From Acidobacteriota bacterium (GTDB taxonomy: Bacteria > Acidobacteriota > Aminicenantia > JBFLYD01), in assembly GCA_040756905.1 (NCBI GenBank), contig JBFLYD010000046.1, positions 1 to 57,641 of the forward strand: a stretch of DNA of 57,641 bases, written 5' to 3'. This document shows, one piece after another, positions 2,683 to 11,511 of the stretch; the first letter of the stretch is position 1; each line of letters opens with the position of its first letter. The notes under the pieces are model-generated. The model made no database searches. It saw only the letters and a list, made by a program, of their open reading frames with translations, and was not told the DNA's origin. The position numbers were made by a program, and so were the translations under genes.

Positions 2683-3600
2683 ATGAGAAATCAAGTATTA
2701 AAGATTTCTGATATCTACATTGATGATAAAAGGTTTCTTATAAGCTATCCCCTTCTTTCACGAAAATTGATGGAATCAATAAAAAAAATCGGCATAATAA
2801 ACCCGCCTGTTCTCGTAAGAAGAAATGGAAATCCGATTATTTTATGTGGCTGGAGGAGGATTGAGTGTTTAAAGAAAATGAAAATAAAAAAGACTTTATT
2901 CAAAATTTTTGATAAAGAAGATGACCTGAAAGCATTTGCATTTTCTTTTTTTGAGAATGTATCAGAACGAATTTTTAATCCCGTTGAAATCTCCAATATT
3001 TTAAATAAGTTCAGAGAGTTTGGATTGAGTGACAAGAATATAATAAGAAAATATCTTAAATTTGTGGATTTAATCCCGAACCGTAATTCATTCGAAAGAT
3101 ATATAAGAATTGGAGAGCTTCCTGAAAAAATTAAAAAATCAATAGCAAAAGGAGAGTTTTTAGTATCAAACGCAAATTTGTTAATGAAATTTAATCATTC
3201 TTCAAGGTTAAAACTCTTTACTATTCTAAAAAGATTTCATCTCACAGCCAGTGAGCAAAGAGAAGTATTTGAGATGATATGGGAAATAATGAAGAGAGAT
3301 GAAAAATCTCTTGATGGGATATTTTCAGATTTGAATTTAGAAGAGATTTTAAAGAATATAAATTTAAAGGAAAAGAAAAAGATTTTGAGAGGCAGGCTCA
3401 AAAAATTAAGATATCCAATTTTTAGTAAAAAAATTGATGATTTTCTAAAGAATCTTCAATTTTTTACTGAAGGAATTAGAGTTCATCCCTCAAAATATTT
3501 TGAGTCTGAAAAATATAGAATGGAGATAGAATTTAAAACCTGGGAAGAGTTAAGGGAGAAAATTAAAGAAGTTCAATTGAGAATTAAAGATGATAGATGA
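2683..3600 (+). CDS. ParB-like (ParB/Srx fold) protein paired with an SPL-like enzyme
   Basis: This 305-residue protein has a ParB-type N-terminal domain at about residues 5-105. The phosphate-binding motif appears as CGWRRIECLKKM (GWRR at 56-59), and a second ParB box appears as ENVSERIFNPVE (91-102), resembling the ENxQRxxLNPxE of ParB CTPases. The middle is helical like a ParB HTH region, and the C-terminus is Lys-rich and unlike classic ParB dimerisation domains. The stop codon overlaps the start of the radical SAM gene (ATGA at 3597-3600), so the two are co-translated. No parA or parS-like array is near, which argues against chromosome partitioning. A TAAAAT box (2670-2675) lies only eight bases before the ATG and there is no clear ribosome binding site. 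I infer a DNA- or nucleotide-linked role with its partner. Confidence 0.7.
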   Translation: MRNQVLKISDIYIDDKRFLISYPLLSRKLMESIKKIGIINPPVLVRRNGNPIILCGWRRIECLKKMKIKKTLFKIFDKEDDLKAFAFSFFENVSERIFNPVEISNILNKFREFGLSDKNIIRKYLKFVDLIPNRNSFERYIRIGELPEKIKKSIAKGEFLVSNANLLMKFNHSSRLKLFTILKRFHLTASEQREVFEMIWEIMKRDEKSLDGIFSDLNLEEILKNINLKEKKKILRGRLKKLRYPIFSKKIDDFLKNLQFFTEGIRVHPSKYFESEKYRMEIEFKTWEELREKIKEVQLRIKDDR

Positions 3601-4730
3601 GCCAAACTTTTAAGTTTGAAAAAATATTTGTGGATGAGAAAGTTAAAGATCATGAATTTACTGGAATAGTTTTGCAGAAAACAAAGGGAATCCCGGTAAA
3701 AATAATAAAGGATGCAAAAAAAGTTGTAGAGGATTTAGCTCTTGAAGATAATTCAATTACCAGAGGAAAGAGATTTATTTTATTGACAGAGAAGAAGGGA
3801 GGTTTTTTAAAACCATGCCCTGGAACTTCTGAGTATTTGTGCTGTGATTATTATGTATTAAACATTTCTGAAAATTGTGTGATTGATTGCACATACTGCA
3901 TACTACAGGAATATTTAATGAACCCTTTTATAACATTATTTGCAAACTGGGAAGATTCATTCAATGAAATCAATGGATTTCTTTCGGAGAAAAAAAATGA
4001 TTTAATAAGACTTGGAACAGGTGAGCTTTCAGATAGTCTGGCAATTGAAGATATATTCCCTGTTTCAGAAAAGATTTTGGAATTTTTAAAAAATAGGAAA
4101 AATGTGATTTTTGAATTTAAAACAAAATCTGAAAATATAAAAAAATTTTTGAATTTAGAACCAATAAATAATGCAGTCTTTTCTTTTTCATTGAACACTG
4201 AAAAGATTGCCAAAGAAGAAGAATTAAAAGCTCCAGAACCTCTTAAGAGAATTGAAGCCGCATCAAAGTTAGCAGAAGAAGGGTGGAGAGTGGGATTCCA
4301 TTTTGATCCAATTGTACATTATAAAAACTGGGAAATTGATTATCATAGAGTTATTAAACTTCTTTTTTCAAAAGTTGAAGCAGAAAAAATAGCTTGGATT
4401 TCCCTTGGAACCCTTAGGTTTAATCCAAAATTAAAACCTATTATCGAGAAAAGATTTCCTAAATCAAAAATTATCTATGGAGAGTTAATAAAGGGAGAAG
4501 ATGGAAAACTCAGGTATTTCAGACCACTACGGGTAGAGCTTTATAAAAAAATTTATAATTTTATAAAGGAAAATATTCAAAAATATTCCCGAGATAAGAA
4601 GTCTATAAGGAAAATAAATATCCCTGTTTATCTCTGTATGGAAAACGAAGATGTATGGGAAGAGGTTTTTAAATGGACTCCGGCGAATAGCAGTGTATTG
4701 AATAACTATATATTAAAGCTTTTTCGTTAA
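3597..4730 (+). CDS. Spore-photoproduct-lyase-like radical SAM protein lacking the H-donor Cys
   Basis: This 377-residue protein resembles SplB along its length. The radical SAM cluster motif is CVIDCTYC (Cys94, Cys98, Cys101; CX3CX2C), followed by LQEYLMNPFITLFANWED, which matches the SPL core. The later block GWRVGFHFDPIVHYKNWE and the segment ISLGTLRF are also SPL hallmarks. In B. subtilis SplB, Cys141 donates the hydrogen atom within a CTSD segment. Here the aligned segment is TGELSDSLA, with Glu143 where the Cys should be. This is therefore probably not a true spore photoproduct lyase but an SPL-family paralogue of unknown substrate. Nothing else in the window suggests sporulation. It overlaps the ParB-like gene by four bases. 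Confidence 0.8.
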   Translation: MSQTFKFEKIFVDEKVKDHEFTGIVLQKTKGIPVKIIKDAKKVVEDLALEDNSITRGKRFILLTEKKGGFLKPCPGTSEYLCCDYYVLNISENCVIDCTYCILQEYLMNPFITLFANWEDSFNEINGFLSEKKNDLIRLGTGELSDSLAIEDIFPVSEKILEFLKNRKNVIFEFKTKSENIKKFLNLEPINNAVFSFSLNTEKIAKEEELKAPEPLKRIEAASKLAEEGWRVGFHFDPIVHYKNWEIDYHRVIKLLFSKVEAEKIAWISLGTLRFNPKLKPIIEKRFPKSKIIYGELIKGEDGKLRYFRPLRVELYKKIYNFIKENIQKYSRDKKSIRKINIPVYLCMENEDVWEEVFKWTPANSSVLNNYILKLFR

Positions 4731-5454: not shown

Positions 5455-6912
5455 TCAAGGCTGACACTGGGATATTTTAAAATTCTTAGTTTCTATTATT
5501 TTGGTAAGTTCTCTTCTCGTGAATTCATCAAGGCGATAGAAATCTTTTTTACTCAATATTTCATTTGCTTTTTCAAGGGCTTTTTGAGGAGAAGTTTTAG
5601 CTCCATTTCTAACCCATTCTTCATAAGTTCCCCTATCTATTATATTACTTAAAAATAGAAATTCATTTTTATACTCTCTTAAAGTTTCAGGCATTGTAAG
5701 AAAATGTTTCTTTTCTTCAAACCTTGATAAGAGATTATAAGCGAAGGGTCTTTCTTTTTTCTCAATCCCTCTAATTAACCTTAAAGCAATTCCACATATT
5801 TCATTATCTATGATCAATTTTTCTATGCTTTGGCAGCTTTCGAAGCTTAACATCCCAGCTCCAGAGACTACGTTTATTCCGGCTAAAGCGGAAAGGATTA
5901 TCCCAACTCCGGATTCAATTCCAGATTGAGAATCAAGCGATTTAGAATCACTCAATCCCATATAACTATGAGTGGGAAGTCGTAGATATTTCCCTATTTC
6001 TGCATATGCGCAATCTATCATCATTGTTTCAATTGCACCCATTGGTGTGGTTCCATTTTTCATATCAAATATCGAAGGCGAACCTCCATATATTATAGGA
6101 GCTCCTTTTCTTGCAAGTTGAGAAATCACGATTCCGCTTAGATTTTCTGCGGTATGCTGGACAAGGGTTCCTGCAAGAGTTATAGGAGATGTTGCTCCAG
6201 CAAGAGGCATGGAAACGAGTTCGACAGGAATGCCAGATTTTGCACATTCAATAAAACTTTGACATGTAAGGTTGCTCCACTTTAGAGGAGGAGAGGGACA
6301 TGCATCAAAAATCGCAAGGGGTTTTTGTTCTAAATTTTTTTTATTTCCCCTTACTGCTACAAGCATATCTTTCATAAATTTAAAACTTTCTACAGTGAAT
6401 GTTCCTGTGACAACTGGCTTTGAACAGTAAATTAAAGATAATAATAATCTGTATCTATCAGCAATTTCTTCTGGTACGTCTGAAGGAACAATTGCTGTGC
6501 TCTGAAGTTTTATGTTTTCCATTTCTTCAGTTACTTTGCAAAAGTTTATGTAATCTTCAGTTAAAGGTTTTCTGAATCTTTGGGTTTTAAAGTCAAGAAT
6601 TTTGATTGCTGCAGAGCCTGGGTCAAAATAGACATTATCTCCTTCAAGCTTGAATGATTTTTCTCCGGTAGAATTGTAAATTTCAATCAATGAAGGCACT
6701 GATTTCAGACTTTTTTCCACAAGGTGCTGAGGGATGTGAACTCTATTTTTTGATATGTTAATGTTTGCTCCTGAATCTGAAAGTAATTTTATTGCTTCCC
6801 TGTTTTCCACTTCTACACCTATTTTTTCAAGGACTTCAAATGCCTCCTGGATAATATCTTCGATAAGATTCTTTTCAAGAAATTTAACTTTTGGCCTTAA
6901 TGTATTGTTCAT
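5455..6912 (-). CDS. MttB-superfamily corrinoid-dependent methyltransferase (non-pyrrolysine)
   Basis: This 485-residue cytoplasmic protein matches trimethylamine methyltransferase MttB family members, which move a methyl group from a quaternary or tertiary amine onto a corrinoid protein. Family stretches include YFDPGSAAIKILD, PLAGATSPITLAGTLVQHTAE, GAPIIYGG and GINVVSGAGMLSF. The reading frame has no internal amber codon, so it belongs to the non-pyrrolysine branch, whose known members use substrates such as glycine betaine, proline betaine or carnitine. It lies 23 bases after the MetH-activation-like gene and is the third gene of a minus-strand operon with its corrinoid protein. The actual methyl donor cannot be read from the sequence. 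Confidence 0.85.
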   Translation of the reverse strand: MNNTLRPKVKFLEKNLIEDIIQEAFEVLEKIGVEVENREAIKLLSDSGANINISKNRVHIPQHLVEKSLKSVPSLIEIYNSTGEKSFKLEGDNVYFDPGSAAIKILDFKTQRFRKPLTEDYINFCKVTEEMENIKLQSTAIVPSDVPEEIADRYRLLLSLIYCSKPVVTGTFTVESFKFMKDMLVAVRGNKKNLEQKPLAIFDACPSPPLKWSNLTCQSFIECAKSGIPVELVSMPLAGATSPITLAGTLVQHTAENLSGIVISQLARKGAPIIYGGSPSIFDMKNGTTPMGAIETMMIDCAYAEIGKYLRLPTHSYMGLSDSKSLDSQSGIESGVGIILSALAGINVVSGAGMLSFESCQSIEKLIIDNEICGIALRLIRGIEKKERPFAYNLLSRFEEKKHFLTMPETLREYKNEFLFLSNIIDRGTYEEWVRNGAKTSPQKALEKANEILSKKDFYRLDEFTRRELTKIIETKNFKISQCQP

Positions 6913-6935
6913 ACATTTTCTCCTTACAGTAATCG

Positions 6936-7580
6936 TTAATTCTTTCTGAAATTACAATTCTTTATCGGACAGGCTTTACAGCCAGAAGAACCTTTTATTT
7001 TAGTCGGGTTATCGAATAAGTTAATCGCAAAGGATACGGATTTTCGAGGAACCATCATAAAATGAGAGGTGAGGGTTACTTCGATTGATTCGGCTGGAAG
7101 AAGTTCGAATATGTACCTCTGATAATCGAGAGTCCATTTTCCATATCCAGGGCTGAATCTTTTCGATGGGAAAAGTTTTAGTTTTTTTGCTTCACTGCAT
7201 ATTCTCTGATTTGCTTGAACAGCTACGCTTTCTGCCATTTCTGACCCGATTACATCATAAATTAAACCTTCCAAAAGATTGTTTTCTCTCATTAGCTTTT
7301 TCGCTAAATCTTCAAGTTTATTACCAATCGTGCATATACAGAGAGCTATTTTCTCAGCCCTGTTAAACACAGAATGCTCTGGTATTTCATTATTTTCAAA
7401 GATCTTGCAGACATATTTTGGTTCAATATATTTCATCGAATTTTTTTTGCACTCTTCAACCATAGAAATTATAGAATCTGTTTTTTCTGTTATCTTTTTT
7501 TTATATCCGATGAGTCGGATTAATCTTCTTGTGTCTAATTCAGGAAGAGGAAATTTAACTTCTCTTATAATTATTTCCAT
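6936..7580 (-). CDS. MetH activation-domain-like protein (corrinoid reactivation candidate)
   Basis: This 214-residue protein resembles the vitamin-B12-dependent methionine synthase activation domain, which binds AdoMet to remethylate oxidised cobalamin. The block KRFSPGYGKWTLDYQRYIF (about 143-161) corresponds to the AdoMet-binding RPAPGYP region of MetH, and LTSHFMMVPRKSVSFAINL is also typical. The C-terminus carries Cys201, Cys204 and Cys209 (CX2CX4C), which could bind a metal or Fe-S cluster, something MetH lacks. It sits between the corrinoid protein and methyltransferase genes, so reductive reactivation of the corrinoid is a fair inference. Odd point: the only ribosome-binding-like GGAGGT touches the ATG directly, which is unusually close. 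Confidence 0.72.
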   Translation of the reverse strand: MEIIIREVKFPLPELDTRRLIRLIGYKKKITEKTDSIISMVEECKKNSMKYIEPKYVCKIFENNEIPEHSVFNRAEKIALCICTIGNKLEDLAKKLMRENNLLEGLIYDVIGSEMAESVAVQANQRICSEAKKLKLFPSKRFSPGYGKWTLDYQRYIFELLPAESIEVTLTSHFMMVPRKSVSFAINLFDNPTKIKGSSGCKACPIKNCNFRKN

Positions 7581-7694
7581 ACCTCCAGCGGTCTAAATTT
7601 TAGTAAGCGAGTAAGGTTTTGTAACATGAGAATTTAATATAACTTTTCCTGCTCAAATTATTAACCACCAAAAGACTTTACATGCTTGCAAATT

Positions 7695-8342
7695 TTACTC
7701 AAAGAATGATTTAGCAATTTTTACTGCAAGGGCAGCATTGTCAGCAGTTCCATCAGCACCAATTGAAAGGGCCCATTCTTTTGTGACAGGGGCTCCTCCG
7801 ACCATAACTTTATATTTTTCCCTTAATCCTTTTTGTTTGAGAATCTCAATAACTTTTCTCTGTCCAATCATTGTTGTTGTGAGCAGTGCTGACATGCATA
7901 TCATATCTGCCTTTTCTTCTTCAGCTTTTTCAACAAAAAGGTTTAACTTTACATCTGCTCCAAGATCAATCACATCGAACCCATTTGCAGTGAACATTGA
8001 GGCAACAAGAGTTTTCCCAATATCATGAATGTCTCCCTCAACAGTCCCGATTATAACCTTTCCTAAGGAATGGATTTTTTCCTTTCTTTTGGAGAGAATC
8101 GGGTTGAATATATCAAGGGCAGCTTTCATTGCCTCAGCGCCAAGAATAAGCTCCGGAAGAAAATATTCTCCCTTTTCCCAGAGGTTTCCAACCTCTTGAA
8201 TTCCTGGTACATACCCATCATCAATCGATTCGGAAGGGTCAATCCCAATTTTTAAAGATAATTCTGCAAGTTCCAAGGCTTTTTCTTTATCTCCCACAAT
8301 GATAGCATTTTTCATCTGGCTGAAAAGTACCTCTCTATTCAT
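7695..8342 (-). CDS. Corrinoid (B12-binding) methyltransferase carrier protein
   Basis: This 215-residue protein has the two-domain form of MttC/MtbC-type corrinoid proteins. A helical cap covers residues 1-88, including PGIQEVGNLWEKGEYFLPEL. A Rossmann B12-binding domain follows, with DIHDIG at 104-109 (His106 is the lower cobalt ligand), SALLTTTM at 151-158 and GGAPV at 182-186. It carries the methyl group between the MttB-family enzyme and an acceptor methyltransferase, which is not in this window. It is the first gene of the minus-strand operon and is divergent from the APC permease, with only 66 bases between them, so both promoters share that gap. Confidence 0.88.
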   Translation of the reverse strand: MNREVLFSQMKNAIIVGDKEKALELAELSLKIGIDPSESIDDGYVPGIQEVGNLWEKGEYFLPELILGAEAMKAALDIFNPILSKRKEKIHSLGKVIIGTVEGDIHDIGKTLVASMFTANGFDVIDLGADVKLNLFVEKAEEEKADMICMSALLTTTMIGQRKVIEILKQKGLREKYKVMVGGAPVTKEWALSIGADGTADNAALAVKIAKSFFE

Positions 8343-8408
8343 TTATTTCTCCAGGTAATAAAGCCTTTCGCAATTTTCATTTTTTGAGTATATTTAATAG
8401 GCAAAATA

Positions 8409-9749
8409 ATGTCAATTCAACAGGATTCAGGAAAAGTAGAATTAAAAAGGGTTCTCAATCTATTTGATTCATCGATGATAATAATTGGAACAACTATCGC
8501 ATCTGGGATTTTTCTCGTTCCTACAGTGGTGGCAGGACATATAAAATATTCAATACCAACGATTATAGGATGGATGTTAGGAGGGATAATAACTCTATTT
8601 GGAGGGCTCTCTCTGGCAGAACTCGGAGTATTGTACCCGAGAGCTGGAGGGATGTTTGTGTATCTTAAGGAAGCTTATGGAAAATTCTGGGGGTTTTTGT
8701 ATGGTTGGACATTGTTTACCGTAATCCAAACAGCTTCAATTGCAGCAGTTGCGGTAGTTTTTGCCACTTATTTGGGACATTTCGTAGAGCTATCAAGATA
8801 TTCTATCGTCGGGATAGCGATAATATCGATTGTGTTTCTTTCGATTGTGAATTGCTTTGGAGTAAAATTAGGGGCAAAGATTCAAAATTTTTTTAGTGTT
8901 TTAAAAATCTCTGCAATCATTGTATTGATTTTTCTTACTTTTTCAAAGCAATTAGGAGCGACTTATTCAAATTTCTTTCCACTTTTTCCTGAAAATAATA
9001 CATTCCCATTTCTTGCAGCCTTTGGGCTTTCAATGGTCTATATTTTATTTACTTATGATGGATGGATTCATATAAATTATATAGCAGGCGAGGTAAAGAA
9101 TCCTTCAAGGAATATCCCTGTTTCTCTTATAGTTTCAATCATGATAATAACGGGCATTTATTTATTAGCAAATATAGCATATATAAAGGTTTTATCGATT
9201 CAAGAAATTGCAAATTCTGAGAGGGTAGCTGCTGATGTTGCCGAAAAAATAATCGGATCTTACGGTGGTGCTCTAATATCAATAATGGTTATTGTAGCCA
9301 CTTTTGGCGCTAACAATGGAATGATACTGGCTGGTCCGAGAGTTTACTATGCTATGGCTGAAGATCAGCTTTTTTTCAGTTTTTTATCGAAGATAAATAA
9401 GAGATATCATACACCCGTAAATTCTATCTTAATCCAGGGTTTATGGTCTTCAGTGCTTGTTCTTTCAGGAAGCTATGAACAGTTGCTTACATATGTGATA
9501 TTTACATCATTTTTATTCTATGGGATGTCAAGTTTTGGTGTGATTTTATTAAGAAGAAAGAGGCCTGATTTAAAAAGAGAATATAAAACATGGGGATATC
9601 CTTATACTCCTGTAGTGTTTATTTTATTTTCTGCTGCCCTTGTTTTAAACACAATAGCATCAAATCCAAGAGATTCTTTGATTGGAATTTTCATCATGTT
9701 TTTGGGCATCCCTGCATATTATTACTGGAAGACAAAAAAAATTGTATAA
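8409..9749 (+). CDS. APC-superfamily amino acid/polyamine permease
   Basis: This 446-residue integral membrane protein has about 12 hydrophobic helices. The first carries IIGTTIASGIFLVP, the APC substrate-backbone motif in helix 1. GGLSLAELGVLYPRAGGMFVYLKEAYG is the usual helix 2-3 region. It resembles the LAT/AGT exchanger-like branch (serine/threonine or amino acid exchangers). The gene lies 28 bases before the GNAT-deacetylase fusion on the same strand, so the two are probably one operon. That suggests a substrate that can be acetylated or deacetylated, such as a polyamine or lysine derivative, but this is inference. It is divergent from the corrinoid operon, so a methylated amine is an alternative substrate. 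Confidence 0.85.
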   Translation: MSIQQDSGKVELKRVLNLFDSSMIIIGTTIASGIFLVPTVVAGHIKYSIPTIIGWMLGGIITLFGGLSLAELGVLYPRAGGMFVYLKEAYGKFWGFLYGWTLFTVIQTASIAAVAVVFATYLGHFVELSRYSIVGIAIISIVFLSIVNCFGVKLGAKIQNFFSVLKISAIIVLIFLTFSKQLGATYSNFFPLFPENNTFPFLAAFGLSMVYILFTYDGWIHINYIAGEVKNPSRNIPVSLIVSIMIITGIYLLANIAYIKVLSIQEIANSERVAADVAEKIIGSYGGALISIMVIVATFGANNGMILAGPRVYYAMAEDQLFFSFLSKINKRYHTPVNSILIQGLWSSVLVLSGSYEQLLTYVIFTSFLFYGMSSFGVILLRRKRPDLKREYKTWGYPYTPVVFILFSAALVLNTIASNPRDSLIGIFIMFLGIPAYYYWKTKKIV

Positions 9750-9777: not shown

Positions 9778-11511
9778 ATGATAAGGTTTTATCAGATTTT
9801 TGACCCTGATTCAGAGTATCAGAGGGAAAAGCTCAATGCATCTCTGGATATATTCAAAAAATATTACAATTATTATGAGGATTATGCTGAAAAGATACCT
9901 CAGAAAATAAAACAGCAGGCTGAGCTTGGTTATAAGGTTGGTATGATAATAGCTGAGAGTCTGAAGGATGGAGTTGTAGGATTTGCCCTTTACAATCATT
10001 TCTGGGATGTCCAGCTAAGCTATCTTGAATTCATAGTGACAAGGAGGGACATAAGAGGAAGGGGGCTTGGAGGAGCACTGTATGAATCATTAAGAGAAAC
10101 CCTTTTCTACCATGGGTCAAAGGGCCTATTTCTTGAGGCAAGGCCTGATGTGTCAAAGCTGGTTAGACAGAAAGAGGAACTAAAACAGAACAAGATCAGG
10201 ATGAAATTTTATGAGTCATATGATGTGAGGCCGATTCAGGGAATTCTTTATGATATACCTCCTTTTGGAAAGTGGGTTCCTCCCTTTCTTCTTTATGACC
10301 ATCTTGGTAGAAATAGACCATTAAAAGCATCTGATTGCAAAAAAATAGTAAAAAAAATATTGGTGGAGAGATATGGAGTATCTCCCACTGATAGATATTT
10401 AAAGAAAATGATTAAATCAATTAAAAAAGAAAATATATCTACAAGACCATTTAAGTACATAAAAAAAGTCGAAAAAATTTTCCCTTCCGTGAAGAAAAGT
10501 TTGTTTAATCCTCTAAAAGTTGTTTATAATGAAAAGCATAAGATCCATCACATAAAAGAGATAGGATATGTTGAAAGGCCTGTAAGAGTCCAAACTATTT
10601 TAAAAGCGATAGAAGACCTGCCATTCATTGAATTTAAGTCACCAAGGGTTTTCAGCGAAAATTATATAAAAGAAGTTCATGCTAAATATTATGTAAATTA
10701 TATAAAAAATGTATGTAAGAGTCTGAAAGAAAATGAGGTTATATACCCATATGTTTTTCCGATCAGATATCCTGATAGAAAACCGAGGGATAGGGGGATC
10801 AGGGCTGGATATTACTGCATTGACACATTCACCCCCCTTACAGGGAATGTGTACCCCGCAGCAAGAGATGCAGTTAACTGTGCTCTTACTGGAGCAGAGT
10901 TGATTATGAAAAAGGGAGAACACATTGTTTATTCAATCTGCCGGCCTCCTGGTCACCATGCAGAGAAGGATTCATATGGAGGTTTCTGTTACTTTAACAA
11001 CAGTGCAATAGCTGCAAATTATCTCTCAAAGAAAGGAAAAGTAGCAATACTGGATATAGATTTTCATCATGGGAATGGAACCCAGAATATTTTTTATAAT
11101 TCTAAAAAAGTGCTTTTTGTCTCTATCCATGGAACCCCATACACAGAATACCCTTATTTCAGTGGCTTTTCTGAGGAGAAAGGGAGGGGAAGGGGATATG
11201 GATATAACTATAATTTTCCTCTTGATGAGAAGGTAAAGGATGAGAAATATTTAAAGATATTAAAAAAAGCATTGAGAACAATTAGGAGATTTAGCCCAAA
11301 GTTTCTTGTGGTATCAACGGGATTTGATATTTCTAAGGATGACCCCACAGGAAGCTGGATGATTACATCAGAGGGTTTCAGGGAGATAGGGAAGGCATTG
11401 TCAACATTTTCAATTCCTATTTTAATCGTTCAGGAGGGAGGTTACACAACAAGAGCACTCGGAAAAAATGTTAGAAATTTTCTTGCAGGAATATGCTCAA
11501 AGTATTTCTAA
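9778..11511 (+). CDS. GNAT N-acetyltransferase fused to a histone-deacetylase-family amidohydrolase
   Basis: This 577-residue protein has two opposing catalytic domains in one chain. Residues about 1-165 are a GNAT fold: FIVTRRDIRGRGLGGALYES holds the acetyl-CoA loop (RGRGLG, 93-98). Residues about 240-577 are a class II HDAC/acetylpolyamine amidohydrolase domain. RPPGHHAE (389-396) contains the active-site His pair His393/His394. DIDFHHGNGT contains zinc ligands Asp428 and His430. STGFDISKDDP contains zinc ligand Asp517, and QEGGY ends with Tyr556, the transition-state Tyr. All key residues are intact, so deacetylase activity is likely. A linker rich in Lys joins the halves. Substrates may be acetyl-polyamines, acetyl-lysine proteins or small amides. 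It is co-directional with the permease gene upstream. Confidence 0.88.
   Translation: MIRFYQIFDPDSEYQREKLNASLDIFKKYYNYYEDYAEKIPQKIKQQAELGYKVGMIIAESLKDGVVGFALYNHFWDVQLSYLEFIVTRRDIRGRGLGGALYESLRETLFYHGSKGLFLEARPDVSKLVRQKEELKQNKIRMKFYESYDVRPIQGILYDIPPFGKWVPPFLLYDHLGRNRPLKASDCKKIVKKILVERYGVSPTDRYLKKMIKSIKKENISTRPFKYIKKVEKIFPSVKKSLFNPLKVVYNEKHKIHHIKEIGYVERPVRVQTILKAIEDLPFIEFKSPRVFSENYIKEVHAKYYVNYIKNVCKSLKENEVIYPYVFPIRYPDRKPRDRGIRAGYYCIDTFTPLTGNVYPAARDAVNCALTGAELIMKKGEHIVYSICRPPGHHAEKDSYGGFCYFNNSAIAANYLSKKGKVAILDIDFHHGNGTQNIFYNSKKVLFVSIHGTPYTEYPYFSGFSEEKGRGRGYGYNYNFPLDEKVKDEKYLKILKKALRTIRRFSPKFLVVSTGFDISKDDPTGSWMITSEGFREIGKALSTFSIPILIVQEGGYTTRALGKNVRNFLAGICSKYF

Follow-up and report, generated by a model that had tools for sequence, protein, structure and literature searches.

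A conserved gene pair of a ParB-like protein and a spore photoproduct lyase-fold radical SAM enzyme with a rebuilt active site in Acidobacteriota

The locus described here lies on the forward strand of a 57,641-nucleotide contig of an Acidobacteriota bacterium (GenBank assembly GCA_040756905.1, contig JBFLYD010000046.1), which was analysed at full length and is called the window below. Two genes were identified: the first (2683–3600) encodes a ParB-like protein of 305 aa, hereafter the partner, in which the open reading frame, PDB matches and an AF2 model delineate a ParB-fold N-domain, an HTH region and a C-terminal domain of the dimerisation type, and the second (3597–4730) encodes a 377 aa radical SAM enzyme with the fold of spore photoproduct lyase (SPL), as indicated by Pfam, TIGR04070, phmmer and an AF2 model. 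The first-pass annotation had claimed a four-base overlap of the two genes, and they indeed have positions 3597–3600 in common, an ATGA in which a start and a stop codon overlap; similar -4/-8 overlaps occur in relatives, and the ATGA type was found between partner and enzyme genes in many of them. Elsewhere in the window, an MttB-type trimethylamine methyltransferase, a protein like the activation domain of B12 methionine synthase and a corrinoid protein constitute a methyltransfer cluster (5455–8342), and a single protein (9778–11511) carries a GNAT acetyltransferase domain together with a histone-deacetylase-family domain. No Rfam match was obtained in the window.

The partner scored 16.8 bits against Pfam ParB_N, below the threshold, and matched ParB and Spo0J structures in the PDB at 1e-5. 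Its AF2 model (pLDDT 92.7) gave ParB, Noc and KorB as the best structural matches, and Foldseek also listed free-serine kinase and sulfiredoxin with weak E-values. Two nucleotide-binding boxes, which had been described as kept, were recovered from the PDB match and the comparison of partners: the nucleotide-binding motif Box I reads GWRR (residues 56–59; 2848–2859), and Box II reads EN (residues 91–92) at the start of the Box II/III region ENVSERIFNPVE (residues 91–102; 2953–2988). Most partners likewise retain Box I (GxRR) and Box II ((E/D)N), which are lost in L065, L003, L004 and both partners read from family f3, so a nucleotide switch cannot be essential in all lineages; judged by its motifs, the window partner likely has one. 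Past the HTH region, the AF2 model continues as a helix-strand-strand-helix C-terminal domain (residues 223–305; 3349–3597), which we read as the probable counterpart of the dimerisation domain of ordinary ParB. The model and the partner comparison place a signature of P245 and KYFE (3493–3504) in the hairpin of this domain. The hairpin is Lys-rich in ordinary ParB, reading KKTKKGG in the genome's own, and is a conserved P-Y-F-E-like segment in the partner family, and the signature is kept even in partners without nucleotide boxes. The partner is basic, with 67 K+R vs. 43 D+E. The ParA-binding motif was found in none of 27 partners, and the genome's own ParB (G000:C44) carries it as LGRGI; no parS was found near the pair, the genome having a single parS-like 16-mer (G000:C44:6706), which adjoins that other parB. 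These results agree with the earlier claim that the protein has no partition partner, and a second partition system was ruled out on the same two grounds. Two genomes encode a further ParB-like protein (G146:C25:34403–35113 and G186:C61:447–1160; model positions 3–244) besides the canonical and the paired ones.

The enzyme matched Pfam SPL with an E-value of 5e-32, and its best curated model was TIGR04070, spore photoproduct lyase (1.5e-36), at 126 bits, which is far under the 400-bit equivalog cut-off. Its AF2 model (pLDDT 91.5, pTM 0.91) aligned with six SPL crystal structures at TM-scores of 0.77 (query) and 0.84–0.85 (target) over about 357 columns, and no structural match of comparable score was obtained besides SPL. 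Using phmmer and the family alignment, the CX3CX2C radical SAM motif was located at 3876–3899 (C94-VID-C98-TY-C101), all three cysteines being present as first reported. The same methods showed that Glu143 (4023–4025), in the segment GTGELSDS (residues 140–147; 4014–4037), replaces the catalytic Cys of SPL: it aligns with that Cys in the Geobacillus thermodenitrificans enzyme by phmmer and with C141 of Bacillus velezensis SPL in the family alignment, and Glu occupies the position in 31/31 family members, which confirms the substitution originally proposed. Within the family, E143 is part of an (I/V/L)GTGEL.DS segment. In most radical SAM enzymes a GGE motif holds the amino group of SAM, and from its sequence the segment appears to read like this motif.

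The alignment further revealed that Cys74 (3816–3818), which lies in the loop from which the alternative hydrogen donor of SPL comes, is invariant (31/31), as is Cys83 (3843–3845), which sits in a four-residue insertion not present in SPL. E173 and K175 of EFKTK (residues 173–177; 4113–4127) and H235 and D237 of HFDP (residues 235–238; 4299–4310) are family-specific, K177 is common to SPL, and a C-terminal Cys347-Met-Glu motif (4635–4643) stands in an extension past the end of SPL. The family and B. velezensis SPL have 20 near-invariant positions in common, among them the SAM lysine, the cluster cysteines and Y97, and differ at 21 (C74, C83, Y85, G140, T141, G142, E143, S147, L148, E173, K175, H235, D237, W267, S269, R306, R312, C347, M348, E349, and W354). 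In the AF2 model, E173/K175/K177 and H235/D237 alternate along predicted barrel strands, as would be expected of a rebuilt pocket. Because E143 sits in the invariant GTGEL.DS together with about 20 further family-specific invariant residues, the enzyme is, judged by alignment, a separate subfamily and not an SPL with one mutation. Glu143 alone was rejected as a subfamily marker, as L075 and the viral L088 have TGE(L/I)ADS with neither C74 and C83 nor a ParB gene. L088 carries two tandem SPL-like radical SAM genes (5866–7996 and 8017–9144; also in the viral contigs L089 and L090), the first of which has NTGELADS and lacks the extra cysteines; the gene next to them resembles TcmP by eye, with no Pfam match. 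The tree of the subfamily has long outgroup branches, and its branching does not settle between a single and multiple origins.

To what extent the two genes are inherited together was determined by gene-neighbourhood surveys. When the proteins of 198 genomes from the phylum were searched, 41 had an SPL-like enzyme. Alignment assigned 33 of these to the type found in the window, with C74, C83, E143 and Cys-Met-Glu; the enzyme of G064, which is masked at these positions, was added to give a total of 34, and the other seven are different SPL relatives. A partner profile (A1) built from 26 aligned relatives of the ParB-like protein found full-length partners in exactly these enzyme genomes (34/34), whereas among the matches listed a dedicated partner was present in 0/164 of the remaining genomes, the listed matches there being ordinary ParB, most of which stop before model position 245. 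The naive Fisher p for this co-occurrence is 5e-39, a figure inflated by relatedness. Presence varies inside families f3, f5, f24 and f34, where both genes vary together, and both are present though unlinked in seven genomes of the phylum survey (G008, G016, G034, G056, G064, G079, and G120). In a survey of 142 genomes of the class, the enzyme was found in 84. Outside family f3, 59 class genomes have the enzyme and 59/59 have the partner, in 58/59 immediately upstream of the enzyme gene and on its strand (a count that combines two tables); in G252 it lies on a different contig from the enzyme. G212 has no enzyme and a partner truncated by the end of its contig, and genus g14 has both genes in 17 genomes and neither in two (G253 and G262). 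The f3 enzyme has an N-terminus shorter by about 55 residues, and at the strict cut-off used the partner was not matched in three f3 genomes (G299, G302, and G308). At L062, L064, L102 and L103 of this family, from genomes G034 and G120, these ~55 enzyme residues and the nucleotide boxes of the unlinked partner are both lost, possibly a correlated simplification. One genome scan beyond the phylum found the pair also at L003 and L004, hot-spring-type MAG loci titled Proteobacteria. The pair is thus conserved in both surveys, and the refutation first proposed, a pair missing from other genomes, fails. Retention and loss of the two genes go hand in hand, so that joint action in one system is very probable, and that they are one functional unit is almost certain; chance neighbours were ruled out by the co-inheritance, unlinked cases included.

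Comparison across families revealed no third gene that consistently accompanies the pair. A syntenic block of dxr, rseP, ispG, a 2-hydroxyacid dehydrogenase, a nucleosidase and ExbBD/TonB/SecDF surrounds it at the class level (assigned by eye except for the nucleosidase), and a wider operon was rejected because these neighbours are conserved only within the class, as synteny. The PNP_UDP_1 nucleosidase gene adjoins the pair in 7 class genomes and is not beside it in the window; a clear example lies upstream of the pair at L036:9519–10262. Among other SPL relatives, a 623-aa Fusobacterium ORF (L091:4110–5981) starts with a half that is nucleosidase-like by eye, with no Pfam match there, and continues with the SPL domain, and on a faecal contig a weak PNP_UDP_1 gene precedes the SPL relative (L093:1229–3155). 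A nucleosidase beside SPL relatives may clear 5′-deoxyadenosine. No shared palindrome, either operator- or parS-like, was found upstream of 29 partner genes and two unlinked enzyme genes. The pair matched no PADLOC model and the phage and plasmid collections held distant SPL relatives only, on which grounds a mobile or defence element was rejected. DNA photolyase is present in 11/34 carriers vs. 74/164 non-carriers (p 0.19), showing no complementarity, and a link with photolyase loss was likewise discarded. Neither Spo0A nor SASP was found in the genome, in line with the claim that the host shows no sign of sporulation.

Four known systems resemble the pair in part. With SplB (PF20903, TIGR04070; PDB 4fhc, 4fhe, and 4rh0) the enzyme shares the fold, the CX3CX2C motif, Y97 of Bacillus (Y100 here), the SAM-binding Lys and the 20 invariant residues, but Cys141 and Tyr99 of the Bacillus enzyme are replaced by Glu143 and Ile102, the family-specific C74, C83, E173, K175, H235, D237 and C347-M-E are added, and a partner protein accompanies the enzyme in a genome where no sporulation genes were found. 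The SPL family protein of non-sporulators such as Nostoc (TIGR03886) is also an SPL fold in a non-sporulating organism; however, the window enzyme scores 46 bits against its 438-bit cut-off, and the Nostoc protein has Cys at the Glu143 column and no ParB gene listed beside its gene. The partner shares the ParB-CTPase fold, the HTH, the C-terminal domain and the lack of a nearby ParA with ParB, Noc, KorB, VirB and the 'orphan ParB' proteins (PMC12704722), but differs in being dedicated to one enzyme, in having neither a ParA motif nor a nearby parS, and in having lost Box I/II in some lineages. The survey of the orphan ParB fold describes many fusions, and its text contains no photoproduct or lyase term (PMC12704722). 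Radical SAM mobile pair protein B (TIGR04470) is by name part of a two-gene unit, and 10/31 family members are similar to it (best 3.6e-9), but the partner there is, by name, another radical SAM protein, and the window enzyme itself does not match the model. A literature search, mostly of papers outside subscription, found none that names the pair, and the combination with its rebuilt active site is without description in the papers and curated models searched. The unrecognised unit that the first-pass annotation had suspected is therefore real, conserved and apparently undescribed, with no visible partition role.

The system acts most likely on DNA, and DNA as the substrate is somewhat better than an even call. 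The chance that the two proteins form a two-component system for processing nucleic acids, in which a clamp delivers a radical SAM DNA enzyme of predicted chemistry, is a little less than even. In this model the ParB-like dimer would bind DNA, load and slide, gated by CTP or another NTP where the nucleotide boxes survive, and its C-terminal hairpin (P-Y-F-E) would dock the enzyme and bring it to DNA, a docking role suggested by conservation. The GTGE of the enzyme would bind SAM as ordinary radical SAM enzymes do with their GGE motif, and the resulting 5′-deoxyadenosyl radical would attack a base or lesion by hydrogen abstraction; SAM would be consumed, whereas SPL recycles it. Cys74 would be the likely hydrogen donor or radical quencher, and Cys83 and Cys347 may be structural or cluster ligands. 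A repaired rather than a modified base is slightly favoured as the product because the surroundings are ordinary chromosomal ones with no defence-system signature. The clamp-delivery model is supported by the strict co-occurrence in phylum and class, adjacent in 58 class genomes and maintained in the seven genomes where the genes are unlinked, by the ATGA-type overlaps, by the whole SPL fold of the enzyme with its 20 shared and 21 differing invariant residues, by the ParB/Noc/KorB fold and basic character of the partner, and by the 27 partners without a ParA motif and the absence of a PADLOC match. Against it stand the loss of the nucleotide boxes in several lineages, the fact that no palindrome or parS-like site is conserved in the regions upstream of the pairs and the missing complementarity with DNA photolyase. 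In its specific form, a nucleotide-gated ParB-type sliding clamp that brings the enzyme to DNA, where it would catalyse a base reaction distinct from cleavage of the spore photoproduct, the model is put forward tentatively.

It is unlikely that the ParB-like protein is instead a transcription regulator, as are KorB, VirB and the unrelated SplA for Bacillus splB, and that the enzyme needs no partner to act on DNA, RNA or a small molecule. KorB and VirB are ParB relatives without ParA that can regulate, the gene order is that of a regulator followed by its target, and action in trans would be compatible with the unlinked genomes; but the 29 partner and two unlinked enzyme genes have no common operator-like palindrome upstream, the co-loss is stricter than is usual for a local regulator, and the many gene overlaps suggest translational coupling of subunits.

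The spore photoproduct forms mainly in SASP-bound spore DNA, and the host has neither Spo0A nor SASP, which weighs against a divergent thymine-photoproduct lyase, in which Cys74 would donate hydrogen from across the pocket and the ParB-like protein would help to find lesions. In the list of structural matches, PDB 4rh0 is the solved structure of the C140A/S76C variant of G. thermodenitrificans SPL, which reportedly mimics the clostridial enzyme. In a MAFFT alignment the window C74 lies in the loop of the alternative donor, two columns from the S76C site, and 12/31 relatives have Cys exactly at that column (position 76). The Clostridium acetobutylicum SPL repairs the spore photoproduct with its own C74, on the opposite side of the pocket (PMC5368176), and because this Cys belongs to another loop, E143 by itself is compatible with photoproduct lyase activity. 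The earlier step from Glu143 to a non-SPL activity is weakened to that extent, and the stronger argument is provided by the ~21 invariant changes together with the loss of the relay Tyr, Tyr99 of Bacillus being Ile102 in the window enzyme and Y in only 9/31 relatives. Although the whole SPL fold and the 20 common residues are kept, E173, K175, H235, D237 and the Cys-Met-Glu tail stand in place of SPL residues. We regard the lyase reading as doubtful, and the enzyme is quite probably something other than a SAM-recycling spore photoproduct lyase. A role in nucleotide or cofactor metabolism, in which the ParB/Srx-fold protein would serve as an enzyme using nucleotides or as a sensor and the substrate of the radical SAM protein would be a nucleoside, would fit the adjoining nucleosidase genes, the further SPL-family branch that follows a nucleosidase-like gene or N-terminal half and the weak Foldseek matches, but is improbable, as the partner, which has both the HTH and the dimerisation domain, is a complete ParB rather than a bare Srx/SerK fold, the nucleosidase linkage was seen in one class only, not in the window, and may just remove 5′-deoxyadenosine, and the nucleotide boxes are dispensable in some lineages.

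Both halves of the pair come from well-studied families, and what is apparently new is their combination and the rebuilt active site. If the tentative reading of a nucleotide-gated clamp delivering the enzyme to DNA is true, the pair would represent a repair or modification system, so far undescribed, in bacteria most of which are uncultured, and a new use of the ParB clamp, as the carrier of a radical enzyme. A clamp that carries the enzyme along DNA would add radical DNA chemistry and would give the ParB-type CTP switch a new job beyond partition, nucleoid occlusion and gene silencing, and the strict co-inheritance makes the link between partner and enzyme directly testable.
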